From: a virus
Reading direction: 5' to 3' (one strand)
Length of the DNA: 25,871 nt
IMG/VR virus record: IMGVR_UViG_3300042465_005782
Location: 1-25,871 of that record
Part shown: positions 3,827-23,348 of the stretch, one piece after another
Layout of the letters: each line of letters starts with the position of its first letter
Numbering within the stretch: the first letter of the stretch is position 1
The notes under the pieces: generated by a model
Database searches by the model: none
What the model was told of the DNA's origin: nothing
The model's input: only the letters and a program-made list of their open reading frames with translations
Made by a program: the position numbers and the translations under genes

Positions 3827-3852
3827 ATCTCCTATTTTATTTATATGGAGAT
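3827..3852 (-). promoter_or_regulatory. Hairpin sequestering the gp13 ribosome binding site
   Basis: Perfect 6-bp inverted repeat: ATCTCC at 3827-3832 and GGAGAT at 3847-3852 on the plus strand, with a 14-nt loop. In mRNA, AUCUCC pairs with GGAGAU, and the latter contains most of the gp13 Shine-Dalgarno. After one U-U mismatch two further A-U pairs are possible. The late promoter octamer is in the loop, so mRNA started there would lack the 5' arm and leave the site free. The stem is short, so strength is uncertain. Confidence 0.6.
3838..3845 (-). promoter_or_regulatory. T4-type late promoter (TATAAATA)
   Basis: An exact TATAAATA octamer on the minus strand, the consensus of T4 late promoters recognised by the gp55 sigma factor with gp33 and the gp45 clamp. 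It lies 14 nt upstream of the gp13 ATG. With the usual spacing, transcription would start near base 3832, just before or within the Shine-Dalgarno. It sits between the stop of the 174-aa gene and gp13, not inside a coding region. Octamers of this sort arise by chance in AT-rich DNA, but position and context favour a real promoter. Confidence 0.75.
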
Positions 3853-3853
3853 A

Positions 3854-4378
3854 TTATTTATTAGTAGGAGCATGAATAGTAACAGGTATCTTTTCAAGAT
3901 CTTTATATGTAATATTGTTTTCTAGATAATATCTTCTCGTAACAGGTTCGATGCCCTCATCTGATTCAGATTTCTTATAATTTGAAAAACCAGGCATTTG
4001 CAATGGACATGCTAATTTTGGATAATCTAATTTAGAATACTCATCACCTTCGGCAATTAGCCAAGTGCCTTTTCTATCTCCACAGCCACAACCTCCACAG
4101 AAAAATTGTCCTGCTGTCGAACTTGGCTTTAAATGTTCACATGGGGGTAATTCCCCACCCTGCTTCATATTACCAAAACAAGATGCTACCCTGAGTTGTT
4201 TTACGGGTAAACTTACTTTATTATTAGATACACCCCGAGATACTATTGCTGATGCAAAATTTTGCATCATGGTCATTTTATTAGCAATAGTATTTTCTTG
4301 TTTAATATCCTGAGTTCTAAATTTTATTTTTTCTTCGTTTTCTTTATTTTCTTTATTTTTTCCACAATTGCAACTCAT
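3854..4378 (-). CDS. Cys-rich protein, putative metal-binding, function unknown
   Basis: 174 residues, not assigned to a family. It opens with CNCGK, then a Lys/Glu/Asn-rich stretch (to about residue 30) likely to be disordered or helical. The core, about residues 75-140, holds six cysteines: one in 'VASCF', one in 'PPCEHL', three in 'FCGGCGCGD' and one in 'LACPLQMPGF'. This spacing suggests a bound metal (zinc or iron-sulphur) rather than a secreted disulphide knot, but that is inference. The start overlaps the stop of the 483-aa Cys-rich gene (ATGA), so the two are probably translated together. It occupies the place of wac/fibritin in T4 but shows no coiled-coil heptads of that protein. A virion or fibre-assembly role is possible. 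Confidence 0.6.
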   Translation of the reverse strand: MSCNCGKNKENKENEEKIKFRTQDIKQENTIANKMTMMQNFASAIVSRGVSNNKVSLPVKQLRVASCFGNMKQGGELPPCEHLKPSSTAGQFFCGGCGCGDRKGTWLIAEGDEYSKLDYPKLACPLQMPGFSNYKKSESDEGIEPVTRRYYLENNITYKDLEKIPVTIHAPTNK

Positions 4379-5826
4379 GTTAAAATAACCTTTCTAAAAA
4401 ATCTTAAATTTCCTTTTTTATTTGAAGGAATTAAATAAGTTTTACCAAATTCACTAACACTATTATTTATACTCAGACAATAGTTAAAAATATATCCATT
4501 AAAAATACTTTTATTTGTTTTTTCAGATGTCAAATTTTCAAAAAATATAGATGATGATGTTAGATTATTTTCAATGTTAAGAATATCACTTAATAAAGGA
4601 TTATTTCTTATGGAATTTGCAAGATAATACAATTCTATTATGCTTGGTATGTAATAATCAGCGAATCCATTTCTTATTTTACCTTTAATTGTATTAACTG
4701 TAAGATAATCTACTCCATAAAAATTAGTTTTATCACCATAGCAGTTATAAAATCCATCAGACAATGAAGTGAAAGACGGTGAATATTTCATTTCATCACT
4801 TGTCATAAATGAAACATTATAATCAGTTGGATCAACAATCAAAGCCCATTTTGTATAGGTATCTCTTGGAGTATCATCTATGTAATATTTTTCTTCTGGA
4901 GCAGAAAGATTCAATGATCCATATACTTTTGAATTTGGAGAATTGACTATAAATTTACCTATGTAAATGCCACCTTTATAAGAATCACCAATCTCAAGAT
5001 TTAATTGATCGAATGTTGATTCAGACATTGTTTCTGGCTCAATAGCTCGACCAGATTGTATAACAGGAACTTGAGGAGCATATGAATGACCACAGAATAT
5101 GGTAGAATTATTTCCAAAATCTGATGAAGTCCAATATCCAGAACAATCATGAAGCATTTTTAAATCACAAGAATATGTAAATCCATCATTAATTTTTGTC
5201 AGAGTATAACATGTTCCTATATCAAAATAAGCAAAACTACTTGAACCAGTAACAATTTGAGCAAATCTTTGAGGAGTGATAGCAGAAGATTCACATTGAA
5301 CTTCAGAACATAATTTATCAGCTGTATATATTGGTGTATTTTTTAGTTCGCCTGTTTCAAACGTGATACCCTTGAGAGAACATTCTTTTTCAGAACAAAC
5401 ATTTTCACAAGTAATTCCTATAGGGAATCCATTTGCATTATAATCTAAAAAACAACAAGCTTTAGGAATTCTTATATCTCTACCTGATGAATCCAATATA
5501 GATTCACTTCCTCCTATTCTTGTACATTCACACTTTGTGACTGTTTTTGTTCCCCACGTAGGATTCGTAGTTAAAATATTTGAGTTTGATATTACTTGTT
5601 CTCTTTGTGAATCTGTCAAATATGAACAAGCATAACATAAAATTTGTTCACCTTGATCTGGACATTCTGCATTTGTTCCAAGTAAGAAGGTTCCATTTTT
5701 TATAAAACACTCATAGAATGATAATTGTTCACTTGTTCCATTTGTATAGCAACAAGTTCCTATTGATTTTAAATCTGTTCCGAAATCAACTACTGATTTT
5801 ACTCTAGATCTAAATTGTGTGCTCAT
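4375..5826 (-). CDS. Cys-rich virion protein with DUF1566-like C-terminus, no collagen segment
   Basis: 483 residues, a shorter relative of the three large fibre genes just upstream. Residues 20-220 hold degenerate six-cysteine modules: 'GTCCYTNG' near 22, 'ACCFLDY' near 123 and 'GTCYTL' near 203. From about residue 279, 'GDSYKGGIYIG' opens a domain also seen in the 904-aa protein and, less clearly, in the 980-aa protein. It continues with 'WALIVDPTDY' and, near residue 388, 'DYYIPSIIELYYLAN', the core signature of DUF1566/Lcl_C. The terminal 'RFFRKVILT' resembles the usual VRPVRR end of that domain in degenerate form. It lacks the collagen N-terminus, so it may pack on a fibre tip or bind a partner. 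Start codon is in a TAATG junction. Role inferred as adhesin or fibre accessory. Confidence 0.7.
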   Translation of the reverse strand: MSTQFRSRVKSVVDFGTDLKSIGTCCYTNGTSEQLSFYECFIKNGTFLLGTNAECPDQGEQILCYACSYLTDSQREQVISNSNILTTNPTWGTKTVTKCECTRIGGSESILDSSGRDIRIPKACCFLDYNANGFPIGITCENVCSEKECSLKGITFETGELKNTPIYTADKLCSEVQCESSAITPQRFAQIVTGSSSFAYFDIGTCYTLTKINDGFTYSCDLKMLHDCSGYWTSSDFGNNSTIFCGHSYAPQVPVIQSGRAIEPETMSESTFDQLNLEIGDSYKGGIYIGKFIVNSPNSKVYGSLNLSAPEEKYYIDDTPRDTYTKWALIVDPTDYNVSFMTSDEMKYSPSFTSLSDGFYNCYGDKTNFYGVDYLTVNTIKGKIRNGFADYYIPSIIELYYLANSIRNNPLLSDILNIENNLTSSSIFFENLTSEKTNKSIFNGYIFNYCLSINNSVSEFGKTYLIPSNKKGNLRFFRKVILT

Positions 5827-8800
5827 TAGGTATCACATCTTTCAAATTCTTCTGTTTCTGGATCTATTACTATTGGTACACAATAATCAATATTATTTAT
5901 TGTAATTTTTACATTCGTAACAGATACAAATGTAAATGGATTTGCACTACAATCACCTACAGTTTTTACACATTCTGGACAATCACTAAGTCCTAATTGT
6001 TCACATTCACGACGACAACATGGATTAACAAATCTAGCACATTGTGATTTACAAGAATCATAATAACCAGTAGAACATGTGGCTCCTACACAGCTTCTAT
6101 ATGATATTTCAAAACCATTTCCACTATTGTTATTAGTGCGTGGCAATCTATCGATACTTCTTACACAAGATTGTGGAGAGGGTGTATTGGTAAATCTAAA
6201 GGGAGCATTATCAATATTACATGGATTCTGGAATTGACATAATGACACAGTACCACAATAAACATTACGTCTCTCGAGAAACGATGTCTCGGAAATATCT
6301 TTAGCCTGACATACAAATCTACGTAAATAATTATAAATTCTATATTCAGTTAAATTACCACATGCAGCATTTAAATCTGATATTGACCAATTTATTTCAC
6401 AATTAGCAAATAAACTATTGTAAATATCTTGTTCACTACCAGTAAAATCAGGACAATTTTCAAGATTGTTACGATAAACACACCATCTAGCTAAACTTTC
6501 GTAGCAGTTTTTATATCCTCTACATGTTATACTTTCTGAGTTAGTTAAATCATCACAAGTAATTGGTGGTAGACCTCCAGATGTACATATTGATGATTTA
6601 TATTCTTTAGTAGCTGTACGCCAATATTTATTACCATTAGAATCACTTCTAATACGATCTTCACAATAAGGAAATGTAACACAACAACAATTTTCAGTAG
6701 AATTACATGATCCACTACCAGATCCTGGACCACCATTACCACCACCACCAGGACCAGGTTCTTGATTTGGACCATCCCCTTGCCAACCAGATCCACCACC
6801 ACCACCATTTAGAACCTCTTCACAATCAATATCATCACAGCTAGTTATATCCTCACCAAATGGAGTAAATACTGCATCATCACCAACACATAAACTTTCT
6901 TGAATTTCAACACATCCTCTAGGTGTACAACACGCACCAAATGGATCTGCGGCACATCCTCCTTCAATTTGGGTTGGTGTACAGCTTGCTTCATTAAATA
7001 CCCCTTCACGAGCAGCACACTCTTCTTCTGTTGTATCATCACATGTATTCTTATAACAACAACTTCCAATTCCAGGTTCATCTGGTGGATCTGGATCTTC
7101 TGGATCATCTATACTACAGTCTATTTCAAGACATGTAGCACCTTCCGTGAATACAGCACCCGCTACTTGCTCACAATTAAGTTTAGAAATATCTATACAA
7201 GCATTACCTCTACAACATGCTCCAGGACTACACATAACAGTAGCACAGGTTTCATTTGGAGTAAATGTACCTTGACATGAATCACTTGTTGTAGTATAGC
7301 ACTCTCCACCTTCCCTACAACATGCTCCATTTTGCGGACCTCCACCACCACCTCCACCACCACCTCCACCACCACTTTGACATTGTTCACAACTACTTAC
7401 TACTTCTCCACCATTTGCTGGATTACAAATAGATGCTGGAACATCTACTGAACAATTTTTATTGCCATTATTCTCTGTAAAACAACAAGTTACATTATTT
7501 GATATTTGATTACAATTATTTCTTTCTAAACATGTGGATACTGCCCAACCAGTTGGATTTGAACATTTAGATTTTAGTACATCATCCTGACAACTTCCAG
7601 GTTCAGTGCAACAAGATCCAAGAGCTTCTGGTGGATCAAAACAATCACAATTTACTTCATCACATCTAAATCCTTCTCCTAAAAATATTCCGTTTGCTTT
7701 ATTACAATCAATTTTATTTAATTGAAAACATCCAGCAGATGTACAACAAGCACCTACACCAACTAATTGATCACAACAATTTGCTTCTGAACAACTACCA
7801 TCTGTAGCGGTTCCTTCTAAAAATTCTTCACACAACAATCTTGTATAATTATCACCAAGACATACTCCATTTTTACAACAGGCAACTAGACCATCTATTT
7901 CACAATTATTTGGACATAATCTATCTCCAAAGTTTACGTCATCTGGATTGTTATTATATGCTCCACAATTTATTCCACTGTAAAAACTTCCACCGAATGA
8001 TTCACATTCAGCAGGATTACTATTTTCTATGCATTTACCATTAGTACAACAAATACCGATATCAGTGCAAGCATTACTACATGGAATCAAAGCATTAAAT
8101 GTACCAAATAAAGTATCACAATTTTCTTTTGTAGTATAATCAATACACTTTTGTGTTAAATTCTCTCCAGAATAGCAGCAAGAACCAAATGAACTAGATG
8201 CTAAACACGTATCAATTGAAACATCAAAACCTCTAGCAGCAACTGTGGCCAACCATGTTTCGCCTTGATCAGTTGAAGTTATATTAATAATTGATTTACC
8301 ACAGGTTAAATAATTTTCACCAGATTCAAAATAAATATTTTCTGGGAAATGCCATATATTTTCATTTTCTGGAATCAATGTTAAAGATATTGATTCATTT
8401 GCTCTAAATGTACCAGTAATTCCTGCAATACCAATTGGTGTTGCTAAGTAAAATGTTCCTGCATCATCAGCATTTAGATAGATTAAATCATCATCTCTAG
8501 TAATTGGACCAACATATTTTATCTTAGAAGAAGCATTTAATTTTGCTCTACCGTTTCCAGAACCAGTATCATTATATACGAGAGTTCCATTATAATAATT
8601 TCCATCATAAGATACTCCAACAGAAGTACTTGATATCTGTGTATTTGTTTTCAAATATACTAATGTATTTTGATTTAAATTTGCTATATCAAGTTCTGAT
8701 GGTGCTTCTGATATATTTGTATGAATATAGATATAATCTGAATCTTCAGTTAAATATAAAGAACCAGTGAATGTCATTCCACGTATTGAAACAGTCTGTG

Positions 8801-9101
8801 TTCCTGAATCATATGATGATATAAAACTATAAGAATCTTCTGGACTTGTTGTGCCACCAATATAAAATTCACTCGTAGCACCACGGAAATTTCCAGTTAC
8901 TTCTTGGGTTGAACCATTGGATAATGTCAATATTATACTATTAGTGTAGGCTTGTATAGATTGAATATACACACCATAATCACCAGTTGGTCCTGTAGGG
9001 CCAGTATTTCCCGTTTGTCCAGTATTTCCTGTGGCTCCTAAATGACCAGTTGGACCCTGTGGCCCTCTAATAACGTATGTTCCTATCGTACTTTTTGACA
9101 T
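5826..9101 (-). CDS. Giant collagen-like fibre protein with ten Cys-rich repeats
   Basis: 1091 residues; probable virion fibre or whisker. Order of parts: a 12-residue head; ten uninterrupted Gly-X-Y triplets (13-42); a beta-rich domain (about 43-300) similar in pattern to those of the next two genes; ten six-Cys modules (306-760) with a 12-Gly run inside; a Gly/Pro-rich linker (about 765-797); and a Cys-rich C-terminal domain (about 798-1091) not recognised, with 'ENCCCVTFPYC' and 'NPCCRREC'. Unlike its two paralogues it has no DUF1566-like end. The collagen segment should drive trimerisation. The cysteines imply disulphides, formed late or after lysis, or metal sites. GGAA before the ATG is a plausible ribosome site. 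Fibre function is inferred from position between baseplate and neck genes. Confidence 0.8.
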   Translation of the reverse strand: MSKSTIGTYVIRGPQGPTGHLGATGNTGQTGNTGPTGPTGDYGVYIQSIQAYTNSIILTLSNGSTQEVTGNFRGATSEFYIGGTTSPEDSYSFISSYDSGTQTVSIRGMTFTGSLYLTEDSDYIYIHTNISEAPSELDIANLNQNTLVYLKTNTQISSTSVGVSYDGNYYNGTLVYNDTGSGNGRAKLNASSKIKYVGPITRDDDLIYLNADDAGTFYLATPIGIAGITGTFRANESISLTLIPENENIWHFPENIYFESGENYLTCGKSIINITSTDQGETWLATVAARGFDVSIDTCLASSSFGSCCYSGENLTQKCIDYTTKENCDTLFGTFNALIPCSNACTDIGICCTNGKCIENSNPAECESFGGSFYSGINCGAYNNNPDDVNFGDRLCPNNCEIDGLVACCKNGVCLGDNYTRLLCEEFLEGTATDGSCSEANCCDQLVGVGACCTSAGCFQLNKIDCNKANGIFLGEGFRCDEVNCDCFDPPEALGSCCTEPGSCQDDVLKSKCSNPTGWAVSTCLERNNCNQISNNVTCCFTENNGNKNCSVDVPASICNPANGGEVVSSCEQCQSGGGGGGGGGGGGPQNGACCREGGECYTTTSDSCQGTFTPNETCATVMCSPGACCRGNACIDISKLNCEQVAGAVFTEGATCLEIDCSIDDPEDPDPPDEPGIGSCCYKNTCDDTTEEECAAREGVFNEASCTPTQIEGGCAADPFGACCTPRGCVEIQESLCVGDDAVFTPFGEDITSCDDIDCEEVLNGGGGGSGWQGDGPNQEPGPGGGGNGGPGSGSGSCNSTENCCCVTFPYCEDRIRSDSNGNKYWRTATKEYKSSICTSGGLPPITCDDLTNSESITCRGYKNCYESLARWCVYRNNLENCPDFTGSEQDIYNSLFANCEINWSISDLNAACGNLTEYRIYNYLRRFVCQAKDISETSFLERRNVYCGTVSLCQFQNPCNIDNAPFRFTNTPSPQSCVRSIDRLPRTNNNSGNGFEISYRSCVGATCSTGYYDSCKSQCARFVNPCCRRECEQLGLSDCPECVKTVGDCSANPFTFVSVTNVKITINNIDYCVPIVIDPETEEFERCDT
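6822..8186 (-). repeat. Array of ten six-cysteine 'GxCC' modules
   Basis: Residues 306-760. Each module begins with a Gly-x-Cys-Cys (or near match) and continues roughly as CC-x(3-6)-C-x(7-9)-C-x(4)-G-x-F-x(4-8)-C-x(3-5)-C. The ten CC pairs are in YSG, TNG, KNG, TSA, TEP, FTE, REG, RGN, YKN and TPR contexts. From memory, similar GACC-type modules occur in extracellular proteins of planctomycetes and some other bacteria, with no known function. Unit length is about 36-55 residues. Confidence 0.9.
7338..7373 (-). repeat. Poly-glycine run from a 12-bp tandem DNA repeat
   Basis: Twelve glycine codons (residues 577-588) made of three copies of a 12-bp unit, tccaccaccacc on the plus strand with the first copy starting acc-tcc. 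It separates Cys modules six and seven, likely a flexible hinge. Loss or gain of a unit keeps the reading frame. Confidence 0.9.
8973..9065 (-). repeat. Collagen-like Gly-X-Y segment of the 1091-aa protein
   Basis: Ten consecutive triplets (residues 13-42): GPQ GPT GHL GAT GNT GQT then GNT GPT GPT GDY. Thr dominates the Y position, as in spore and other bacterial collagens, where Thr can be glycosylated. The triple helix needs three chains, so a trimeric stalk is expected. Confidence 0.95.
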
Positions 9102-9119
9102 AATAATTCCAATATATAT

Positions 9120-12062
9120 TTAGCAACCATCAGGACATGATATACAAGTTTCAAGATCATAATTATTGTATGCGTTAATAATTGAATAATTGCAATCATC
9201 AGGCAATACTACAATTGGTATTCTACGTACTGGCCTTAAAGCAGCAGATTTAGTATTTCTTGATTTAGATTCAACAAGACCATCATCAAAATTCTGAACA
9301 AGCATATTTTCGCCAGCACATGAATTCATACTAAGATCATATAATTCATTATCTGAAATATTATAATCTGATCTGGTAAATCTAAATTTACTGTTATAAG
9401 ATCCCGATGGAGTTTCAAATATTTTATACAATGATTTATTATCAGGATTATTATTATTCCATTCATGTAGAACACAAAGACTTGTTGAACTCCAATATTT
9501 AAGTTCAGAATCCAATGGACTTTGACCATTGATCAATAATGATGCATTTAATTCATCTTTGTTTGCATAGATGTAATTTAATTCAATAATACTTGGTATA
9601 TACCAATCAGTATAACCATTAATACCAGTTTGATTTATGATTGATATTTGTTTAGTGCAAGAATCTGTTGAATTATTTGAGTCCCACATATTTGCATATG
9701 CTGATTTGAATAAATCAATATTATTTTCAATGGAAGTTTCATTTACATTTGAGTTCCAATTTGACTTTCCATTGACAGATCCATTATAGAAACAGAATCT
9801 ATCGTATGATTTATTATCACCTGAAGAATTCCTATACCAGAAATAAATGTTTTCTTTAGATGTTTCGTCATGAATTCTTGTAGTCAATAATCCATCTAAG
9901 GCACATGTACTAATTGGTTCATTGTTATATGAATTCAATCCTCTCGCTCTTCCCTCAGACATACCCCATTTTAATAAGTAATCTTCATCTTGAAGTTCAA
10001 TATCTGAAGGAGCTATGATCAAGGCCCATAATACTGGAATACCAGATGAACCATAAAATTGTGTTGCTAAATTTCTATATTTATCAGATTTTGGTAGACC
10101 AAGACCTTCAAATAACATGACATTGCTTAGATCACCAAGTGAATAAGATAATTGTTTTGCGTTAGGGTTTGATTCGAATATAGCGACATTTAACCATTCT
10201 ACATCTTCATCTGAAGTAGCAGTGGTTCTAATTTTACCTTCATAAGTCTGCATGACATATGGAGAACCACCCTTAAATAGACATTTTTCTTCTCTATGTT
10301 CATTAGTTAATACTTCAGGATGTGTTCTTGAGAAATATTTAATATTGAGTTTTGATGCTGGTAAATCAGTTGTACCAAAGGTTTGACCAGAATTTCCGTA
10401 ACAATTCTTATACTTATACGATTGATAACCAGATACAAAGCCTCTTGGATAATATCTACAGCCTAATACTTGACCTTCCGCAATCAATGGGGTTGAAAAA
10501 TTATTACATGGAGATGGTTGTCCTACAATGCCAACTAAATATCCACCACCTATTCTTGTACCAATATTCAGACATGGTATATTGATTGTACTTCTACACG
10601 AAGAATCTTCTTCACTTGTAAAGTATGCTGTTGTTGATTCGCGTGTACAACATTTGCCACTAAAAATTCCTGGACCTAAAAATACACCAGTACATTGATC
10701 GGCAAATTTACTAGTTATTTTACCATCTTCCTCACAACATCCTCCTAAAGAAGTAGCCTGACATAGTGGATCACAGTCACCATCACAGTGTTCATCCTCA
10801 TAAAATACACTATTATTCAATGATTCACACTCAAAATTAGTAAAATCATTAAAGCATTTACCATTTACACAACATTTTCCAGTTTTTATTTCAGATGGAC
10901 ATGTTGTTGGGCATGTAAAATACGCATCACTTCCATCTGTATTATTACATATCTGAAGTGGATGAAATATACCACCATATTTCAAACATAGATCCTGTGA
11001 TGTATTTACACAACTATTATTTACACAACAAGCTCCCTCGGAAAAACAATCACCATTTATTACTCTAGCCGAACATGATGTAGTTCTAAAACTTCCACCC
11101 ATAGACAAACAATATTCTTTATTAACATAATCAAGACATTTTATATCAGCATCTGTTTCATTTAATTCACATAAACAACAAGATCCAACATTTTCACTTG
11201 TTATTAATTGTGGAGTAAACGAATATCCACGATTGTATGTGTTTTTCAAAAATGAAATATTAAAATTACTTGCACCACTTGAACCAATATACAATGTTTG
11301 ATTTAATTCAATCTTATTACCTACATCAAAATTTACTTGATATCTAGAAAAGTTTTGATTAATAGCATATGATGGATTAAAATTAAATAATGTATCAGCA
11401 ATACCAGTAGCACCACTAAATCCTACTATATTTTGAGTAAATGATATAGAACTTCCATAATTTATATTATTGTGTATTGCGTGTCTCTCTGATGCTAATG
11501 GTAAATCCAACATAGAAATACCATTATCCCAATAACTATTAGGAACTCCTTTTGCTTTTGTGGCACTGTATATAAATGCTATATTACCAGTGTCGCCTAC
11601 AGGATAAACTGTGTATGTTTTACCAGCTACTGATATTTTATTCACATCTACAGAAATTGAACTAAAAGAATTTGTAGAAGATTTAAATGTTATACCTTTA
11701 AGGGCTAATGTGGCTCCTTCAGTAAGTAATTGTATATTTAAAGCTCTCAAATTTTCTGTTTCATGAACAATAACAGAAATACCATTTGTAGTATTTCCCT
11801 TTAAAATAGAAAATTCATTACTATAAGCAGATGTATTTCCTTGTATATTTAAAGAAACTGAACCAGTTCCTCCAATATAAATTGTAAGATTTTTTCCAGA
11901 AATATATGTAAAGCCAGTAATACCTAAACCAGATGCACCAGTTGGACCAGCAATAAGTGGTCCACTGATGCCAGTTGGACCAGTGGGACCATTTGGACCT
12001 GTTGGACCTGTTGGACCAACAATATTGCTTATATAAGGTAAAAATGAGCTTCCTATAGTCAT
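9120..12062 (-). CDS. Collagen-like fibre protein with Cys modules and DUF1566/Lcl_C-like tip
   Basis: 980 residues; likely receptor-binding fibre. Parts: 15-residue head; collagen triplets at 16-36 and 39-47; beta-rich domain to about 290, including a 'LKGITF' segment matched by 'IRGMTF' and 'FKGISS' in the paralogues; five CC modules (293-489); then 'GGGYLVGIVG' and 'WALIIAPSD'; then the DUF1566 signature 'DWYIPSIIELNYIY' near 819, 'YWSSTS' near 856 and the closing 'ALRPVRRI' near 941. DUF1566 with collagen repeats is the layout of the Legionella adhesin Lcl, which binds glycosaminoglycans. The tip may therefore bind host glycans; that step is inference. The end carries another Cys pair (CISCPDGC). 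The gene follows the 904-aa paralogue by 1 bp. Confidence 0.82.
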   Translation of the reverse strand: MTIGSSFLPYISNIVGPTGPTGPNGPTGPTGISGPLIAGPTGASGLGITGFTYISGKNLTIYIGGTGSVSLNIQGNTSAYSNEFSILKGNTTNGISVIVHETENLRALNIQLLTEGATLALKGITFKSSTNSFSSISVDVNKISVAGKTYTVYPVGDTGNIAFIYSATKAKGVPNSYWDNGISMLDLPLASERHAIHNNINYGSSISFTQNIVGFSGATGIADTLFNFNPSYAINQNFSRYQVNFDVGNKIELNQTLYIGSSGASNFNISFLKNTYNRGYSFTPQLITSENVGSCCLCELNETDADIKCLDYVNKEYCLSMGGSFRTTSCSARVINGDCFSEGACCVNNSCVNTSQDLCLKYGGIFHPLQICNNTDGSDAYFTCPTTCPSEIKTGKCCVNGKCFNDFTNFECESLNNSVFYEDEHCDGDCDPLCQATSLGGCCEEDGKITSKFADQCTGVFLGPGIFSGKCCTRESTTAYFTSEEDSSCRSTINIPCLNIGTRIGGGYLVGIVGQPSPCNNFSTPLIAEGQVLGCRYYPRGFVSGYQSYKYKNCYGNSGQTFGTTDLPASKLNIKYFSRTHPEVLTNEHREEKCLFKGGSPYVMQTYEGKIRTTATSDEDVEWLNVAIFESNPNAKQLSYSLGDLSNVMLFEGLGLPKSDKYRNLATQFYGSSGIPVLWALIIAPSDIELQDEDYLLKWGMSEGRARGLNSYNNEPISTCALDGLLTTRIHDETSKENIYFWYRNSSGDNKSYDRFCFYNGSVNGKSNWNSNVNETSIENNIDLFKSAYANMWDSNNSTDSCTKQISIINQTGINGYTDWYIPSIIELNYIYANKDELNASLLINGQSPLDSELKYWSSTSLCVLHEWNNNNPDNKSLYKIFETPSGSYNSKFRFTRSDYNISDNELYDLSMNSCAGENMLVQNFDDGLVESKSRNTKSAALRPVRRIPIVVLPDDCNYSIINAYNNYDLETCISCPDGC
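10596..11186 (-). repeat. Five Cys modules of the 980-aa protein
   Basis: Residues 293-489. CC pairs in SCCLCE, ACCVNN, KCCVNG, GCCEED and KCCTRE. The second and third are closest to the canonical unit ('GACCVNNSC...LC..GG.F'). The fourth and fifth are compressed and diverged. Confidence 0.85.
11922..12017 (-). repeat. Collagen-like segment of the 980-aa protein, with kink
   Basis: Seven triplets (16-36: GPT GPT GPN GPT GPT GIS GPL), a two-residue break Ile-Ala, then three triplets (39-47: GPT GAS GLG). The total is ten, the same as its neighbours. Confidence 0.94.
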
Positions 12063-12063
12063 G

Positions 12064-14778
12064 TTAGATTAATGGCAAACGCCATAGTTTGTATGTTTCA
12101 TCACTTACTGAAGGATACGATCCATCACATCTTATTAATTTAATTGGCCTAACTTTATATGTATTTTCTGTTCTATTAGCAGTTATAGAATAATTATTTT
12201 CTGGATTTTCTGCATCAATCTTATGAATCCAAGCATTTGATCCTTTATTAGAGAATGCTTGTGCATTTGCTGTAGTATGTGCTCCAGTTGATGTCCAATA
12301 AATTCCATTTAATTGATCATAACCAGACAATAGTAATGAAACATTTATATTAAAATCTGTTGTCTGCTGTGTTAGATATGAAATAAAACCAAGTTCATCG
12401 TGTGATGGAATAAACCAACTTGATTCTCTTTCTGTTGTAGGAGGATTGTCAATATTGTATTGTGTAATTGCTTGGTAGATTGTTGGAAAAGTTAATGATG
12501 TATCTTCAGTATATGACAGCTTAGATGTCAATAGTCTATGAGTATTATATAAACCATAATTTCTTCTCCATTTACCAGTATATCCAGAAGATGATTGACT
12601 GAAAAGCCATTGTAAAGAACTACCACTATTTCTTATATTTGGTAATGCAAAGGTATTGCTTAATAGACTTGTCAAAGATACAACACCTTCACCTAAACTA
12701 AATACAGGTGTTGATGTGATCTCTTCTATATTATTTGTTATTGGATTGTGTATATATCCCCAAGCAATTTGATTTTTAGACCAAATGAAATGTGAAGTAT
12801 TTTGATATTCTAAATCTTGTTTAGAAATAATTAATATAAACTTATCATCTCTAGAAGTTCTAGATGCAAAAGATTTATCAAAACCATATCCATTAAAATC
12901 GTATTTAATAGTAAATACTGATGAAGGTGTGTTAGAGTTTATAGTATCAATGTCAGTGAAATTAGAAACTGCACTAACATCATTAAAAATACTATTTCCA
13001 AATATTTTAGAAGTATTCAAATCAAATATTCCAACAACAATACCTCCAGCATATTCATCACCCTGTTTTAATTCTGATATACCTGGAATAGTCTGTGAAC
13101 ACGCAATAGAATCTGGTGAACAATTAAATGATTGACAATATTTCTGATCACCTAGATATGATTTACTTTCAGAAATACACTGTGATCCTGTATATCCATT
13201 AACACAAGTGATACCAGAATCACAACATCCACCACTACCACCAGAACATATGTTTAATGGCGAGACAGCATTAGGTTTACATTTAACACCAATGCCTTGA
13301 AAAAAGTAACCTTGTGCATTGCAAGTATTATTATTAAGAGCTTCACACCCACCAACTCCATTGCAACATGAACCTGATGGAAGAGTACCAAAACATGTAT
13401 CATCACATAAAAACCATTCTAATGTACTCTTTAGCCCCTCAAATGGGTGAAAAATAAATTCATTCTCTCCAGCACTAGTAGCACATTGACAATAAGTTAA
13501 TTCACTTGGTGTAAAGATATTTTCTGCTGTTTTAATACAACAACTACCTTTTCTCGTACACAATGATGAATTTGATATTCTTTTTGTTGGAATGAAATAG
13601 CCAGTACACCCACCACTTATGCTTTCATAAGCGGAAGAAGTACAATTGCCTGGACAGCATAAACCACCAGTAAAAAATTCTTGTGATGGCAATCTTTCTG
13701 AATATGGGTAGCATGTTACACTTAAACTTTCTGAATCAATAGAAGTATTTGAACTTGCACTATTTTGTTGATATTGTACAGGATATGCAAGATATCTTCC
13801 ACCAATTGAAATTAGATTGAGAGCATTAAATGATGAATCTGGGCAAAAATATGAATTATTTTGCCATTCTATACCAGCAACATCAAATCTATTATAGAAA
13901 TTATCACCTAATGTAATTCCAGAATCAATATCAGCATCATTATCATAAATTACATAATATATTTTATTTGAATTTAATGTAAATGTGTTTGGAAATTGAA
14001 TTGTGATACCTTTAGATAAAGTACCATATTGTGGTTCTTTTATAAAGAACACATATCCATTTATTTCATTATTTGTATTTAAAGTATTTGTATATGGATT
14101 GATGTGAAATATAGATCCTTGTGATGGATCTATTTTCCAATAAACTAATGATGAACTTACAACATTTGGTTTGCAAATTACAAGACTTTCATGTATATTT
14201 TTATGTTGTATTAATATAGATGCTTCATCTTCATTATATTTGGTAGAAGTAATTCCAGCCTGTTTTTGTCCTGGAAGATTTTGTAAAATATTTCCTAAAG
14301 TCCCACCACTTATACCAATAAATCCAATATTGATTGCATCAAAATCAACACGAATTGTGTTATTATTGATATAATTTACTCTTACGTATGGAGAACTCGC
14401 TGATGATATACCTTTGAATGTTAATATATCAACAGGAAATTGAGAGTCATATGTTTGATTTGTTAATGAATTACTTAATGGACTAAAATTAAAAAGACTT
14501 ACACCAAGTAATTTTATTTTTGAATAACCATTAGCACCAATAATACGTTCATTGGAAGAGATAGTTTTTCCATCACTATAATGAAAAACAAATGTTTTAT
14601 CTTCTGCAATAGTAATATTTACTAAATTGGCTCCAGTGTTTCCTGTAGGTCCAATAATACTATTACCAGTTGCTCCAATTGAACCAGTAGCACCAGTATT
14701 ACCTGTAATACCAATTAATCCTGATCTATAGGATTCGATTTCTAAAGAATAAACATAACTGCTTCCAGTACTTCCCAT
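12064..14778 (-). CDS. Collagen-like fibre protein with Cys modules and DUF1566-like tip
   Basis: 904 residues, first of the three tandem paralogues in transcription order. Parts: head 1-19; collagen triplets 20-40 and 43-51; beta-rich domain to about 365; four CC modules (371-553); 'GDEYAGGIVVGIF' near 572, which matches 'GDSYKGGIYIGKF' in the 483-aa protein; then a DUF1566-like region with 'SWFIPSHDELGF' near 787, 'YWTST' near 827 and 'KVRPIKLI' near 877. A 20-residue tail follows. Trimeric, disulphide-stabilised fibre with a binding tip is the best reading. A receptor cannot be named. It starts 3 bp before the end-proximal 158-aa gene stop and may be co-translated with it. Confidence 0.82.
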   Translation of the reverse strand: MGSTGSSYVYSLEIESYRSGLIGITGNTGATGSIGATGNSIIGPTGNTGANLVNITIAEDKTFVFHYSDGKTISSNERIIGANGYSKIKLLGVSLFNFSPLSNSLTNQTYDSQFPVDILTFKGISSASSPYVRVNYINNNTIRVDFDAINIGFIGISGGTLGNILQNLPGQKQAGITSTKYNEDEASILIQHKNIHESLVICKPNVVSSSLVYWKIDPSQGSIFHINPYTNTLNTNNEINGYVFFIKEPQYGTLSKGITIQFPNTFTLNSNKIYYVIYDNDADIDSGITLGDNFYNRFDVAGIEWQNNSYFCPDSSFNALNLISIGGRYLAYPVQYQQNSASSNTSIDSESLSVTCYPYSERLPSQEFFTGGLCCPGNCTSSAYESISGGCTGYFIPTKRISNSSLCTRKGSCCIKTAENIFTPSELTYCQCATSAGENEFIFHPFEGLKSTLEWFLCDDTCFGTLPSGSCCNGVGGCEALNNNTCNAQGYFFQGIGVKCKPNAVSPLNICSGGSGGCCDSGITCVNGYTGSQCISESKSYLGDQKYCQSFNCSPDSIACSQTIPGISELKQGDEYAGGIVVGIFDLNTSKIFGNSIFNDVSAVSNFTDIDTINSNTPSSVFTIKYDFNGYGFDKSFASRTSRDDKFILIISKQDLEYQNTSHFIWSKNQIAWGYIHNPITNNIEEITSTPVFSLGEGVVSLTSLLSNTFALPNIRNSGSSLQWLFSQSSSGYTGKWRRNYGLYNTHRLLTSKLSYTEDTSLTFPTIYQAITQYNIDNPPTTERESSWFIPSHDELGFISYLTQQTTDFNINVSLLLSGYDQLNGIYWTSTGAHTTANAQAFSNKGSNAWIHKIDAENPENNYSITANRTENTYKVRPIKLIRCDGSYPSVSDETYKLWRLPLI
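13120..13668 (-). repeat. Four Cys modules of the 904-aa protein
   Basis: Residues 371-553. CC pairs in LCCPGN, SCCIKT, SCCNGV and GCCDSG. The third ('SCCNGVGGCEALNNNTC', then 'GYFFQGIGVKC') is the most canonical. Confidence 0.85.
14626..14721 (-). repeat. Collagen-like segment of the 904-aa protein, with kink
   Basis: Seven triplets (20-40: GLI GIT GNT GAT GSI GAT GNS), a two-residue break Ile-Ile, then three triplets (43-51: GPT GNT GAN). Break position and flanking GPT are the same as in the 980-aa protein. Confidence 0.93.
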
Positions 14779-14780
14779 AA

Positions 14781-15257
14781 TTATTCACTTACTGGTACTT
14801 TATAACCAATGTAGTTTACTACTGTTCCTGTAAAATTACCGTGTGGTGCTACTTGATATACTGGTTTTACAATATGGTTTTGATTAGTTGGAGCCAATGA
14901 CTGTAATTTTCCAGCAGTTAAACCGCTAAGGAAATAAATATCATGACCACCTTCACCACCATCATCAATATTAATATATCCAGTTAAACCGATTGATCCA
15001 TATAATACAACATTCGCATTTCCAGAAATATCAACACTTTCTACTATTCCGAAAACTTCAGCAGTATTTGGTGAATCTGCTTTTGATCTCTGATACTTTG
15101 ATGATGATATACTATAAAATATTGCATCTCCTGCTGATATACCTGGTGATGCAAATTGTGCTGCTGACAACTGTACAATCAATCTATTACCACCATCAGA
15201 TGATAAATTTACTACTGTATTTGCTGCTCGTATATTTGAACTAATTGATGTAGCCAT
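14781..15257 (-). CDS. Small virion protein sharing a domain with the adjacent fibre
   Basis: 158 residues, mostly beta by composition. From about residue 38 to the end it resembles residues ~102-218 of the 767-aa fibre upstream. Shared landmarks are 'SKADSPNTAEVFGIV' against 'SRANTPENAEILGLL', 'GLTAGKL' and 'IYFL', then 'VKP' against 'SKPI' and a closing 'VVNYIGY' against 'VLSYRGNY'. It therefore looks like a free copy of one fibre domain, possibly a cap, adaptor or decoration on the same structure. AAGGAAT lies 6 bp before the ATG. No enzymatic motif. Identity beyond 'structural' is not claimed. Confidence 0.72.
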   Translation of the reverse strand: MATSISSNIRAANTVVNLSSDGGNRLIVQLSAAQFASPGISAGDAIFYSISSSKYQRSKADSPNTAEVFGIVESVDISGNANVVLYGSIGLTGYINIDDGGEGGHDIYFLSGLTAGKLQSLAPTNQNHIVKPVYQVAPHGNFTGTVVNYIGYKVPVSE

Positions 15258-15267
15258 ATGTTATTCC

Positions 15268-17571
15268 TTAAATTGGATAGTCAGCATCAGCAATGAAATG
15301 GTAATAAATTTGATCGTATGAAGTATATCCTTCACTCACATTTATTTTAATAGTATTTATTCTTGGTATGGCATTTATTGCTATACCACCAGATGCACTT
15401 CGTATTCCTCCAGCATATCCAACAGTACCATTTGTGTACCTTAATTCTCTTGTCGCTGTTTGATTATATGCTTCATTTGAAGATCCACTGTATGGTGAGT
15501 ATAATGTTATAGTAGGTGTTGTTCTCATGTGAATTGGTAATTCATGAACAACTGATGAATAATTTGGAAGAGTTACAAGATATGGAGTAGTTTCTGATGT
15601 TATGAATGTTGAAACTAATGTTGGTGTTCCTATTCTTTCTTCCCTTGCATATGTTGTATAATAATATTGTTGGCAATAATCTAATTGTTGGCCATATGGA
15701 ATAAAATGATGATTAGATATAGATGATGTTCCATATGAAGCATTGAATGAAGCTAAAGATACATAAACATTTGTTGAAATTGATTCAGATGCTTCATTTG
15801 CTTGAGTAATTAAAGGTATTAAATCAAGTCCAATTTCAGAATAATCATTCGCCAATGGTGTAACCGACGAAGATACTTCATCAACATAAGTTGTTATATT
15901 ATATTTTGCCCAGTTAGTAGTTAAATTTACAGTTCCCAATACTTTATAATCTAACAAAGAAGTTCCATTATATCTTGAGAGATATACTATAGCAGTATTA
16001 TAATTTGAATGTGATGTCTTAGCATAGAAACTAACTGTTACATTTTTCTTATCGACTGCTTTTGCATCTGGAATAACATGACCAACCATCATATGATCGA
16101 AGAAAGTATATCCAGGGTAACTAGCAGTAGTGATTCCAGCATAAGATGCTGCTGATGAACCTAAAGCCTTTATATCGACATAATAATTTGGACTTCCTTC
16201 TATTTCTGTCTGATAATCACTAAATGATTGTCTAGTTATATAAAAGTTCTTGAAACTGTCTCCACCAGTGACACCATCGTGTCTTCTCCATAGATCAGCA
16301 AATATAACATTCCCAGTTGATGTATAAGGCACATCTCTACCAATATTTGATCTCTGCCATACTTCAAAATTACCATTTATAAGAACATTTGGAGTTCCTG
16401 CTGATGACGATGAGGTAGAACGAAGATCAGTTGTTGATGAAGTAGTATAAGGCTTTTGTATATCAATTACTGAATAACCAGATGATACATCATAATTAAT
16501 AGCAATAAGAGGAAGAGTACCTGGTCTTGTCGTGGCTGAAATTAATTGAGGATTATCAGACCTATCTGAAAGATCAAACTCATCATTTAAATATGAACCA
16601 CCAACACCAGGTAATACTGATGTATATCCAGATAATTGTAAAGTAATATAAAGATTTGAACCAACTATAAATTTTTCAATCACAACACCAACAATATAGA
16701 CTTCTTCATCATTTCCAGCTCTACTATGGAACCAACCTCCATAATTTTTTCTATTACCTAAATCATCGACACCATTTATTGAAGTTGCATAAGACGGAGA
16801 AAATGACAACACATCACCAAGCAATATTTCTGAGTCTGCTGTTGAATAAAGTATAGTATTAAGAGAAAATACTATTTGATTTGAGCCAGAAGAACCATAA
16901 CTTGTGAGATCGTAATTTAAATAATTACCACGATAACTTAAAACTATACCTTCATTTAGAGTTAAACCCATCACTATTGGTTTAGAAACAGTACCAGTAG
17001 TTTGTGGTTCATCATCATCAATTTTTCCAGCATTTATGCTATCTAAAAAATAGATGCAACCAGCACTAAGACCTTGCCCATAAATTCCAGAAAAATCTCC
17101 AGTAATTTTACCAGCAATGGTTATAGTTGATGATGTGATTCCTCTTGAAGATAATAATCCTAATATTTCAGCATTTTCTGGAGTATTTGCTCTTGATGCT
17201 GTTAAACCCAATGCCTGTGTTGTTGAGTCTAAGTAAATTCTAACTGGTGTACCAAATGTATAACCAGAAGTTCCAGATGTAATACCAGTTGTCTGAATAT
17301 TAATATTTGGAATATTTACATTACTATTAAAAGTAATTGTATTATTAAATGTTAAAGGAGCTTGAATTATTCCAGATGTACCACCTATTGATAGTGATAA
17401 TTGGCCACTTGTATTAGTAGTTGCTAATATCCCATCTCCACTCGTTGCTCCATAAACCTTTAATAGATTTAATTTAGCAATAATATCATTATTTTCTTTA
17501 TTAAACCAATCATAAAAAGTAGCTGTTGAACCTAATGTTGAAATTACATATGTATTATTTGTAACTGGCAT
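15268..17571 (-). CDS. Tail fibre / adhesin with carbohydrate-binding-like C-terminus
   Basis: 767 residues. The N-terminal ~35 residues ('STATFYDWFNKENNDIIAKL') look like a short attachment helix. Residues ~102-218 form the domain shared with the 158-aa protein, and ~225-370 may be a diverged second copy. From 'LINGNFEVWQR' near 395 comes a jelly-roll-like domain of the kind widespread in phage fibres ('NGdF.vWQRG ... DLWRR'). It continues through 'VTVSFYAKTS' and the 'LDYCQQYYYT' segment near 630, and ends in 'YYHFIADADYPI', a usual closing strand of such fibres. The substrate is probably a surface glycan. It may replace T4 gp10-gp12 functions; that is inference from position. AAAGGTAAG is its ribosome site. 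Confidence 0.8.
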   Translation of the reverse strand: MPVTNNTYVISTLGSTATFYDWFNKENNDIIAKLNLLKVYGATSGDGILATTNTSGQLSLSIGGTSGIIQAPLTFNNTITFNSNVNIPNINIQTTGITSGTSGYTFGTPVRIYLDSTTQALGLTASRANTPENAEILGLLSSRGITSSTITIAGKITGDFSGIYGQGLSAGCIYFLDSINAGKIDDDEPQTTGTVSKPIVMGLTLNEGIVLSYRGNYLNYDLTSYGSSGSNQIVFSLNTILYSTADSEILLGDVLSFSPSYATSINGVDDLGNRKNYGGWFHSRAGNDEEVYIVGVVIEKFIVGSNLYITLQLSGYTSVLPGVGGSYLNDEFDLSDRSDNPQLISATTRPGTLPLIAINYDVSSGYSVIDIQKPYTTSSTTDLRSTSSSSAGTPNVLINGNFEVWQRSNIGRDVPYTSTGNVIFADLWRRHDGVTGGDSFKNFYITRQSFSDYQTEIEGSPNYYVDIKALGSSAASYAGITTASYPGYTFFDHMMVGHVIPDAKAVDKKNVTVSFYAKTSHSNYNTAIVYLSRYNGTSLLDYKVLGTVNLTTNWAKYNITTYVDEVSSSVTPLANDYSEIGLDLIPLITQANEASESISTNVYVSLASFNASYGTSSISNHHFIPYGQQLDYCQQYYYTTYAREERIGTPTLVSTFITSETTPYLVTLPNYSSVVHELPIHMRTTPTITLYSPYSGSSNEAYNQTATRELRYTNGTVGYAGGIRSASGGIAINAIPRINTIKINVSEGYTSYDQIYYHFIADADYPI

Positions 17572-18235: not shown

Positions 18236-20025
18236 TATAATCCCTTAATCATATTTATTCTAATTATTCTGGATAATGTACCAGATGTTGTTGTTAACTT
18301 TAGATCTCTTGAAGTTCTTTTTGTTTGTAATACTTTACCAGAATATTGTTTAAATGACGGTGATGAAATTACAGTATTTACAATGAATTCATTGTCACTT
18401 GAATCTGTAATTGCAGATAAAGAAGACAAGTTAGAATAATCTATTCCACTAACAGTTATTATAGATTCAAACGGTGATTGTGGATAATCAATAAAATATA
18501 ATTGATCATTAGATACATTCTGCAAAATTCTAGATGTATTTGTAGTTTTACTTACACCAGATACAATAGAATTTGCAGACCCTTTACCTTTACTTGGAAT
18601 AGTTGTGGGATTTCCAAGTGTTTCGTCACCAGGATAATAAACAGAAACCACAGAACCACCTGATTTTACTTTACTGTTATATGGAGATAATTCAGCTCCA
18701 GCAATAACAAGATCACCATTTGGTAATTCTTCTAAAGGATTAGATACTAAACCAAATAAATTTATAGTTTCTGGCAATGCTACAGCACTCGAATATAATT
18801 CATTTGTATCTATTCTTGTATCTACCATAACATTATTACAATTCAATACATCATATGGATCTATGTTTAATCCATCAATATTATCAAAATTAACATTAAT
18901 TGATGATAATAAAATATCAACAATGTTAGTATTTGTAAATATTGAATTAGATATACTCAAACTAATATCTCTGTAATTCGTTCCACCTGATTGAACTTCT
19001 ACACCTTCTACAATATATTTTCCATAAATATTTGTGTAGGTCAGGAATCTCATTGATGCTCCTGATCCAGTTGCTGATGTAATAGTAATTTGAGGATTTT
19101 GTATACTAACAACTAAATCATCACCAGTTATTCCTGATAAATCTAACTGTGCAGAAATAAGAGAACCATCATCTGGCCCATTGTTTGCTATTTCATATAA
19201 TGCATAATATGGAGATGAAGCTGGTAGTTTATTTTCTGAAATCAATCTTCCAATTAAATCAAACTTATCTTCAATTGTATAAGTTGAATTTACACTAGTA
19301 CCAGTTGGATAGAATTTATTGTAAAACTTAGGATTATCTGTAAAAAGTGTATAACACTCAGAACAATCACTAATAAAGGAGGTATATAAATCTCCTTTAG
19401 AATAATTTTCAAAACTTATACCAGATATTGGTAATTGATTATTATCTTTAAAATATAAAGCACATGATCCAGTTGCTGTTATATTGTTTAAACAAAATTC
19501 AGTCTGTGCAGTATATTCTGTAGAAAATGTTTGTTCTTCAAAAGTTTCAAATGATATAACAGGAATCCATTCAGTCTTAACAAATCTTAGCAAATCACCT
19601 GTTATTCTGTAAATGGGTAGCCAGGAATAACCATCTGGATATGATTGTATTCCATAACTGTGATTTGGAATATATGTTGAAGCATTTTGTCCTTCACGAT
19701 CTATTCTATTATATGCATTATTTTGAATACAAAGATAAACATTTCCATTTTCTTTATTCCATGCATAATATGAATTTGTATTTTGTTTGTTTGATTTCCA
19801 AGGATAGTAAATATTTCCAGATGACCATGGATTGTTATTAATAACACCTATAACGTCAGCCTTACTAACTTTCTTACTAAATGCCATATCTCTCCACAAA
19901 TCTATAGAAGATATTGTAGAAGTATCATCAGCAACACTATCTGATTGACCGACAAAAACATGTAGATGTTCGGTTTTTCCTATAGATGAAATATATGACT
20001 GAATATCTTTAGATTTTTTTAACAT
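18235..20025 (-). CDS. gp8: Baseplate wedge protein (gp8-like) with long C-terminal extension
   Basis: 596 residues from the ATG at 20023-20025; T4 gp8 is 334. That ATG makes a TAATG junction with the previous gene, so I prefer it to a TTG three codons upstream. The N-terminal ~150 residues follow gp8: 'HVFVGQSDSVADDTS', 'DLWRDMAFSKKVSKADVIGV', 'WSSGNIYYPW', 'NGNVYLCIQN' and 'DGYSWLPIYRI'. T4 gp8 is a wedge component beside gp7 and gp10. The extension (about 300-596) contains a 'GSGA...GG-T-x-Y' module near 325-365, common in phage structural proteins and probably a beta sandwich. It may be a binding platform for the fibre genes downstream. Confidence 0.83.
   Translation of the reverse strand: MLKKSKDIQSYISSIGKTEHLHVFVGQSDSVADDTSTISSIDLWRDMAFSKKVSKADVIGVINNNPWSSGNIYYPWKSNKQNTNSYYAWNKENGNVYLCIQNNAYNRIDREGQNASTYIPNHSYGIQSYPDGYSWLPIYRITGDLLRFVKTEWIPVISFETFEEQTFSTEYTAQTEFCLNNITATGSCALYFKDNNQLPISGISFENYSKGDLYTSFISDCSECYTLFTDNPKFYNKFYPTGTSVNSTYTIEDKFDLIGRLISENKLPASSPYYALYEIANNGPDDGSLISAQLDLSGITGDDLVVSIQNPQITITSATGSGASMRFLTYTNIYGKYIVEGVEVQSGGTNYRDISLSISNSIFTNTNIVDILLSSINVNFDNIDGLNIDPYDVLNCNNVMVDTRIDTNELYSSAVALPETINLFGLVSNPLEELPNGDLVIAGAELSPYNSKVKSGGSVVSVYYPGDETLGNPTTIPSKGKGSANSIVSGVSKTTNTSRILQNVSNDQLYFIDYPQSPFESIITVSGIDYSNLSSLSAITDSSDNEFIVNTVISSPSFKQYSGKVLQTKRTSRDLKLTTTSGTLSRIIRINMIKGL
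18252..18259 (-). promoter_or_regulatory. Candidate late promoter (AATAAATA)
   Basis: Minus-strand AATAAATA, matching the NATAAATA late motif reported for T4-like cyanophages. It ends 16 nt before the ATG of the 216-aa gene, leaving the AAGGGA ribosome site in the transcript. It lies in the end of the gp8-like coding region, and such octamers occur by chance in AT-rich DNA. Confidence 0.4.
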
Positions 20026-21218
20026 TAGTTGCAACCAGTACAGGATAGATTTTCGTTTGGGCTAGTAAAACCGTCAGCATAGCATAAAATAATAAAATCT
20101 TGTATATTTATATTACCAAAGGTATCTTCAGTGATTAGCTGATTCCAATTTGGGAATCGATGTGTAGGTCCAGTAAATCCAGAGTAACTAGCCCCACAAC
20201 AACCTACACAGGAAGTTATTCCATAGAAAGTATATCCATTTATAGTTCCTAAAGAACCATATGTCACATTAAGACGATATGGGGCATAGTTTGAGAGCAT
20301 TGGGTATTCACAAATAGTTCCCACCTCATCATCTGGTTCTGCTGGCTGAAAATCTGATAATTGTTTACCAAATATTAAATGTGTTCCAGCTGGATGGTTT
20401 GAAGCTCTATAAACTTGTTCTAGGTCATCATTATCATTATAATTTGACCCTACAAATACAAGATATGAGTAATCATGAAACCATGTTGTATCATGAAATT
20501 TTGAAAAATTCAAATAACTTCCAGATAGATCACCTTTTTCAAGATAACTACCAGTGTCACCTGTTCCAGTTCTAAAAGTGAAATTTGAGTCAGCAAATTT
20601 ACCACCATTTAGTCTTAATATAAATTGTTTCGGTATTTCAATTTCAATATCAGCTTCATCAATTACGAATAATGTAGTTAATAGCTTTCTAATACCATCT
20701 TCTGTTCCTTTTCGATGGTAAAAGTTTTTTCTTATTCCTATAAAGAATTTTTCTAATTCCGATCTTCCAACTGTTAATGAACTAGAATCAAATATTCCAG
20801 TAAATGATTCTGCGTATACGGCATACAAATTTTGTATTAGATTTTCTTTTGTTTTTCTTATATCAATGAGATCTAAAATATTATTTGAAAGACCATATTG
20901 ACCACCAGTAGAATTATCACAGTATAGCCAATCATAATATTTTTGTAAAAAATCATAGATTGTTAAAACAGTTTCTCCATTACCTTCACGTTCTGTTTTT
21001 TCTTTGATTACCCACAATGGAATAAATTTTGTAATATCAAATAAAGTACCACAAGTTTCTGTATTATTTGTATTAAATCTAGGATCATTCTCAACAAGAC
21101 GAGTTGCAGATGATGATTTATTTTGAGTTAATTCAATTTCTTGAATAACCAAATCAATCAATGCATTTACAGCATGATTATTATTTAATACTGCGTCTTG
21201 TATAAGATATGGTATCAT
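20025..21218 (-). CDS. Baseplate wedge, gp7 / tail protein I-like, short form
   Basis: 397 residues. The middle has the tail-protein-I pattern: 'FLQKYYDWLY' near residue 88, 'SELEKFFIGIRKNFYHRKGT' near 152-171 and 'EDGIRKLLTTLF'. In contractile systems this family (P2 gpI, T4 gp7 core) pairs with the J/gp6 protein to form the wedge, and here it directly follows gp6. T4 gp7 is 1032 residues, so this is a reduced version. The C-terminus carries 'CVGCCG' near 337 and ends in 'CTGCN', an unusual Cys cluster. It overlaps the gp6 stop by 4 bp (ATGA). The gp7 label rests on family and order, not on full-length similarity. Confidence 0.72.
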   Translation of the reverse strand: MIPYLIQDAVLNNNHAVNALIDLVIQEIELTQNKSSSATRLVENDPRFNTNNTETCGTLFDITKFIPLWVIKEKTEREGNGETVLTIYDFLQKYYDWLYCDNSTGGQYGLSNNILDLIDIRKTKENLIQNLYAVYAESFTGIFDSSSLTVGRSELEKFFIGIRKNFYHRKGTEDGIRKLLTTLFVIDEADIEIEIPKQFILRLNGGKFADSNFTFRTGTGDTGSYLEKGDLSGSYLNFSKFHDTTWFHDYSYLVFVGSNYNDNDDLEQVYRASNHPAGTHLIFGKQLSDFQPAEPDDEVGTICEYPMLSNYAPYRLNVTYGSLGTINGYTFYGITSCVGCCGASYSGFTGPTHRFPNWNQLITEDTFGNINIQDFIILCYADGFTSPNENLSCTGCN

Positions 21219-23340: not shown

Positions 23341-23348
23341 TATTTATT
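23341..23348 (-). promoter_or_regulatory. Candidate late promoter (AATAAATA) before gp25
   Basis: Minus-strand AATAAATA at the end of the previous gene, followed by AATATATGG with the gp25 ATG 6 nt later. Transcription from here would give an almost leaderless mRNA. Chance occurrence is likely in such AT-rich spacers, hence low confidence. Confidence 0.25.

Follow-up and report, generated by a model that had tools for sequence, protein, structure and literature searches.

What is encoded, in an uncultured T4-like phage, in the interval that holds genes 9–12 and wac in T4? In the 25.9 kb virus record IMGVR_UViG_3300042465_005782, which was analysed over its whole length of 25,871 nucleotides and is referred to here as the window, this interval is occupied by four genes, designated F1 to F4, which form a putative fibre cassette carried with the structural genes on the minus strand. 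The initial annotation regarded these genes as a tandem fibre family combining collagen, a six-cysteine repeat and DUF1566, and the four open reading frames were found to lie exactly at the span that it had claimed (Table 1). The present analysis considers the architecture of the four proteins, their divergence between related phages and their possible function.

Gene order and affiliation of the locus

In the order of transcription, the window encodes an 840-aa tail protein (phrog_350), gp25, gp6, a 397-aa protein called gp7-like by position, a gp8-like wedge protein (phrog_438), a 216-aa protein, fib767, s158, F1, F2, F3, F4, s174, gp13, gp14, gp15, gp16 and gp17, so that the F1–F4 block (4375–14778) sits between the gp8-like baseplate genes and gp13. 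The best matches of gp17 were to marine cyanophages (approximately 60%) and those of gp13 to Pelagibacter and Methylophilales phages (approximately 40%), on the basis of which the phage is considered to be T4-like and related to the Kyanoviridae. None of 17 related contigs carried psbA, and there is thus no positive pointer to a cyanophage; a scan of GTDB genomes for relatives of F4 found none and therefore identified neither a host nor a bacterial source.

The proposal that the block replaces the T4 gp9–gp12/wac region was supported. The interval is the same, and models of gp9/10 and fibritin (PF07880 and PF07921), which detected their T4 controls at 2.2e-75 and 2.3e-34, respectively, had no match in the window or in 11 relatives. 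A Pfam scan of the interval's proteins listed neither gp11 nor gp12.

Several neighbouring genes possess features of their own. The s174 product contains a cysteine cluster (FFCGGCGCGDRKGTW), and its gene directly precedes gp13 in almost every locus, whether or not the cassette is present; in distant relatives it is often more conserved than gp14 or gp15, and a tblastn search against 50,697 phage records returned no match. Cysteine clusters are also present in the C-terminal parts of the 397-aa gp7-like protein (20025–21218, minus strand) and the 840-aa tail protein (23347–25869, minus strand). The 216-aa gene, P0007 (17585–18235, minus strand), matches short stretches of far larger phage families, namely phrog_358 (2056 positions) and DUF4815, and its C-terminal half is divergent between close relatives.

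Table 1. Positions of the cassette genes, their domains, the adjoining genes and the segments that diverge from contig IMGVR_UViG_3300042478_000653.
Feature	Coordinates	Strand	Basis or remark
F1, 904 aa: collagen, middle domain, Cys modules, DUF1566-like tip	12064..14778	-	Upstream-most cassette gene
F1 collagen-like G-x-y region, aa 20-49	14632..14721	-	Pfam Collagen 0.082 (sub-threshold); run of 7
F1 Cys modules, aa 371-562	13093..13668	-	3 module HMM matches
F1 DUF1566/Lcl_C-like tip, approximately aa 573-885	12124..13062	-	Lcl_C in family members; hhalign to F4
F2, 980 aa: collagen, middle domain, Cys modules, Lcl_C tip	9120..12062	-	
F2 collagen-like region, aa 16-45	11928..12017	-	Pfam Collagen 0.062 (sub-threshold); run of 7
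F2 Cys modules, aa 292-472	10647..11189	-	3 strong module HMM matches
F2 Lcl_C core match, aa 793-869, within C-terminal tip	9456..9686	-	PF07603
F3, 1091 aa: collagen, middle domain, at least 9 Cys modules, Cys-rich tip without detected DUF1566	5826..9101	-	
F3 collagen-like region, aa 13-45	8967..9065	-	Run of 11 G-x-y
F3 Cys-module array, aa 305-771	6789..8189	-	9 strong module HMM matches
F4, 483 aa: Cys modules and Lcl-fold tip, without collagen	4375..5826	-	
F4 predicted DUF1566/Lcl CTD-fold domain, aa 268-482	4381..5025	-	AlphaFold2 and structure comparison
s158 and fib767: structural genes adjoining the cassette	14781..17571	-	fib767 matches phrog_4492 tail fiber
s174: small conserved Cys-containing gene at the cassette/gp13 junction	3854..4378	-	Kept in relatives without the cassette
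Divergent segment 1: F2 tip	9120..11190 (approximate)	-	68-78% nt tiles; aa profile
Divergent segment 2: F3 tip, all of F4, s174	3850..8190 (approximate)	-	nt 70-80% or unaligned; 99% again at gp13

Architecture of the four proteins

The collagen-like repeats of F1–F3 begin within approximately 20 residues of the N-terminus. Their longest unbroken G-x-y runs (7 repeats in F1 and F2, 11 in F3) were matched by none of 2000 shuffles, and most of the collagen glycines form invariant columns in a 22-row alignment of F2/F3 homologues, the mean column identity of which is approximately 25%. Profile searches gave a weak PDB match of the F2 region to the collagen-like stem of BclA, and the F3 ortholog L006 matched Pfam Collagen at an E value of 2.2e-4 (21.4 bits versus a cut-off of 27.2). 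With so few repeats, the cut-off of this family (PF01391) was reached neither by F1 and F2 (E values of 0.06–0.08) nor by the F3 ortholog; the presence of collagen repeats in three of the genes is nevertheless borne out by the shuffled controls and by the invariant glycines. The repeats are followed in F1–F3 by a middle domain of roughly 250–300 residues. Full-length F2, predicted by AlphaFold2 on a mixed F2/F3 alignment, attained a pLDDT of 35.7 and this model was not used.

Beyond the middle domain lie modules with the pattern G-x-C-C...C...C...F...C...C, for which the consensus is xGxCCxxxxC...C...G.F...C...C with all six cysteines invariant. An HMM of the module, built in this analysis, recovered the annotated six-cysteine repeat in F1, F2 and F3, while F4 carries related but diverged CC modules that this HMM missed. 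Cysteine accounts for 3.1–8.7% of the residues of F1–F4 as against 0–2.3% for the remaining genes of the window, with the exception of s174 (4.6%). No Pfam family matched the module, and its sole PDB profile matches, Notch EGF repeats, were weak (best E value 0.035) and were set aside as a product of chance cysteine spacing.

Concerning the C-terminal tips, F2 matched Lcl_C (PF07603) with an E value of 7.7e-7 (29.8 bits, under the Pfam cut-off of 34.9) and the adhesin_Lcl model NF046116 with an E value of 0.0041, at 15.7 bits versus an equivalog threshold of 500, and its tip gave a weak PDB profile match to the Lcl C-terminal domain (CTD) structure 8q4e (E value 0.58). F1 itself had no Lcl_C match, but six of its nine family members did (best 0.0013), as did 13 of the 21 members of the F4 family (best 4.2e-5), matches being counted at an E value of 0.1 or better; moreover, hhalign aligned F4 with F1 across the W-x-IPS region at a probability of 98.5 and an E value of 3e-15. 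In the corresponding comparison of F4 with F2, the aligned positions lay mainly in the Cys modules and not in the tips. In F3, DUF1566 was not found, and the C-terminal stretch of approximately 290 residues is rich in cysteine. Two of the three collagen-bearing genes thus end in DUF1566-like tips, as had been claimed, and in both of them the collagen region and the C-terminal DUF1566 domain are joined as in Lcl, with the Cys modules between.

The fold of the F4 tip was addressed by structure prediction, which gave an AlphaFold2 model with a pLDDT mostly of 75–94 over residues 268–482. In a Foldseek comparison with solved structures this model ranked the Lcl CTD 8q4e first (probability 0.99, E value 0.024), and the pair superimposed with a VIA Z of 9.5 and an rmsd of 3.0 over 121 of 131 residues. 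The Bacteroides fimbrial protein 4eps, which is the structure named for DUF1566 tips in papers on diversity-generating retroelements (DGRs; PMC8143477, PMC4159848), scored similarly (Z of 10.2), followed by snake-venom and mammalian C-type lectins (Z of approximately 5), while the viral matches in BFVD were DUF1566 proteins of uncultured Caudovirales. According to the model, the tip of F4 is therefore of the Lcl CTD, or C-type-lectin-like, fold. The Lcl-type pairing of collagen with DUF1566 in the initial annotation is in agreement with this model and with the F2 match, and its description of a fourth gene with CC and DUF1566 parts applies to F4, which is devoid of collagen.

Conservation of the cassette and divergence of its tips

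Searches of viral contigs identified 65 places related by gp13 and 134 related by F4. The cassette is therefore common, yet none was found in 50,697 phage records, in which tblastn with F2, F3 and two F4 relatives gave no matches. All four genes occur together in 47 of the fetched loci (30 distinct by the F4 C-terminus). The order F1-F2-F3-F4-s174-gp13 is unbroken among labelled loci, where each label is the best-scoring HMM and single labels could be wrong as F1–F3 share modules. In two loci, L059 and L060 (8258–9964), s158 is directly followed by s174 in the order fib767-s158-s174-gp13, from which it follows that the cassette is optional. At the F2 position of L022, a 154 kb contig, a related collagen head is combined with RCC1-like repeats (4324–6735). 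In L043, the relative of F4 (6682–9351; 889 aa) has a C-terminal extension of approximately 400 residues beyond the Lcl-like tip.

Comparison of the window with contig IMGVR_UViG_3300042478_000653, by DNA tiles and a protein identity profile, revealed a sharp contrast between heads and tips. DNA identity is 91–100% from gp6 to F1, except in s216 where it falls to 76%, and 98–100% from gp13 to gp17; most of the flanking genes are at 94–100%. Past its head, F2 drops to 68–78% with 97–100% on either side; the head of F3 returns to 97–98% before the alignment is lost, and F4 and s174 are at 70–77%. At the protein level the F2 and F3 heads are 97% identical, as opposed to 35–69% for their tips and the entire F4. 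The profile places F2 at 90–100% up to residue 300 and the F3 head at 83–100%, with identity declining once the first Cys module (residue 295 of F2 and residue 308 of F3) is passed.

Such a fall in DNA identity, flanked by nearly unchanged sequence, indicates that one allele has been replaced by a diverged one, and the comparison points to an exchange of tips in which the breakpoints lie close to the first Cys module. Fast point mutation of the tips was rejected for this pair, as 68–78% nucleotide identity next to neighbours at 97–100% fits an imported allele. The clean contrast between tip and head was seen in this one pair: in L037/L068 the entire cassette is divergent beside a gp13 at 98.8%, in L095/L099 the difference lies mainly in the F3 tip, and in several close pairs tips and backbone are equally conserved. 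Since whole-cassette divergence and conserved tips both occur, exchange is episodic.

Relation to known systems and proposed function

The closest parallel by position is the host recognition cluster of pelagi- and cyanomyophages, the structural proteins of which are described as including triple collagen repeats and domains resembling Mtd (PMC7029224). That cluster, too, precedes the neck genes in the structural block; it contains tail-fibre genes and is hypervariable. The cassette likewise lies between baseplate and neck genes, and its variability extends to the clean pair, L037/L068 and the F3 tip of L095/L099, the other close pairs not being hypervariable. It differs from the cluster in its fixed order of four genes, its Cys-module shafts and its Lcl-fold tips, and neither auxiliary metabolic genes nor glycosyltransferases were recognised within the cassette interval of the window. 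Metaviromic islands of marine phages (PMC3909814) are similarly hypervariable between otherwise closely related phages and include some host-recognition genes, but collagen, DUF1566 and cysteine are unmentioned there.

Legionella Lcl, the CTD of which forms a trimer and has sulphated glycans as ligands (PMC11162425; 8q4e), shares with the cassette the combination of collagen and DUF1566, and with the F4 tip its predicted fold. In contrast to Lcl, the cassette is in a phage structural locus and its proteins are longer, with intervening Cys modules and only 7–11 unbroken G-x-y repeats. DGR targets of the Bacuni phages of Bacteroides uniformis (PMC8143477) and proteins of uncultured Caudovirales (BFVD) also carry C-type-lectin-like DUF1566 domains that are thought to set host range; for the cassette, no reverse transcriptase was found in 17 related contigs, and its diversity resembles the exchange of whole tips. 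The side tail fibres of Escherichia coli O157:H7 prophages have a collagen triple helix and are proposed to be trimeric, but trimerise through a coiled coil and PfC, and the parts of that account consulted describe no Cys modules or DUF1566 (PMC3368898). The view that no phage structure of this kind has been described consequently requires qualification: collagen fibres (PMC3368898), DUF1566 proteins (PMC8143477) and collagen repeats in the host recognition cluster (PMC7029224) are each on record, while a four-gene set uniting collagen, a shaft of Cys modules and an Lcl-fold tip is, as far as our searches extend, undescribed, a literature search on DUF1566, collagen and phage having returned none.

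Based on these findings, we consider it probable that F1–F4 are the virion-attached receptor-binding fibre set of an uncultured, Kyanoviridae-related T4-like phage, with tips swapped by recombination. The location of the genes between the baseplate-wedge genes and gp13 favours this reading, and it is further supported by the divergence of tips relative to heads and by the host recognition cluster known from this place (PMC7029224). By analogy with Lcl (PMC11162425) and other phage collagens (PMC3368898), F1–F3 would trimerise via the short N-terminal collagen helix, and the collagen together with the following domain would constitute the conserved virion-proximal part by which the fibre is attached. 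The six-Cys modules would act as a stiff, probably disulphide-bonded shaft that carries the tip outward, the tip being a C-type-lectin-like DUF1566 domain in F1, F2 and F4 and another Cys-rich type in F3. During adsorption, the tips may bind glycans or other polymers of the host surface, and host range would shift when recombination near the first Cys module swaps them, an exchange at the border of head and shaft that may alter specificity while leaving assembly untouched. Cysteine-rich modules are odd in proteins assembled in the reducing cytoplasm, which counts against the fibre reading.

The same proteins might be neck or head-decorating fibres of the whisker/fibritin or Hoc type, which hold other fibres or stick the virion to particles. 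F4 and s174 lie immediately before gp13, the position of wac in T4, and a collagen stem bearing a lectin-like tip would fit a role in general adhesion to polymers as well; given that no fibritin domain was detected in the window or its 11 relatives while the T4 control was positive, and that tip exchange on a near-identical backbone better fits a host-matched receptor than a general glue, we regard this as unlikely. Still less probable is that F1–F4 are not part of the virion but are produced in the course of infection as, for example, secreted adhesins or proteins that modify the surface: Lcl is itself a secreted cell-surface adhesin (PMC11162425) and Cys-rich modules suit an extracytoplasmic place, but the genes are within an uninterrupted structural block from gp25 to gp17 of invariant order, and the N-termini of F1–F3 lead almost directly into collagen with no signal peptide apparent by inspection. 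That a DGR generates the tip diversity, as in Bordetella and Bacteroides phages, DUF1566 being a common target domain of such elements (PMC4159848, PMC8143477), is the most improbable of all, since an RVT_1 search with working controls found no reverse transcriptase in 17 related contigs of up to 154 kb, which may be fragments, and whole tips differ at 68–78% nucleotide identity rather than in a short block of A-directed changes.

Receptor-binding fibres thus remain the preferred reading of F1–F4. A broader proposal, which we advance tentatively and with some doubt, is that they represent a distinct class of host-recognition apparatus, in which each virion would bear four different fibres, three of them collagen-stemmed, with disulphide-stabilised six-Cys shafts and glycan-binding Lcl-fold tips swapped as units, and which would be widespread in T4-like phages known from metagenomes and without an isolate. 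In a phage lineage without cultured members, the cassette indicates which genes probably encode receptor binding, and separates their fixed parts from those that are swapped. It also connects a phage fibre with the fold of a bacterial adhesin, and offers a direct means by which phages may be matched to their hosts in metagenomic data.
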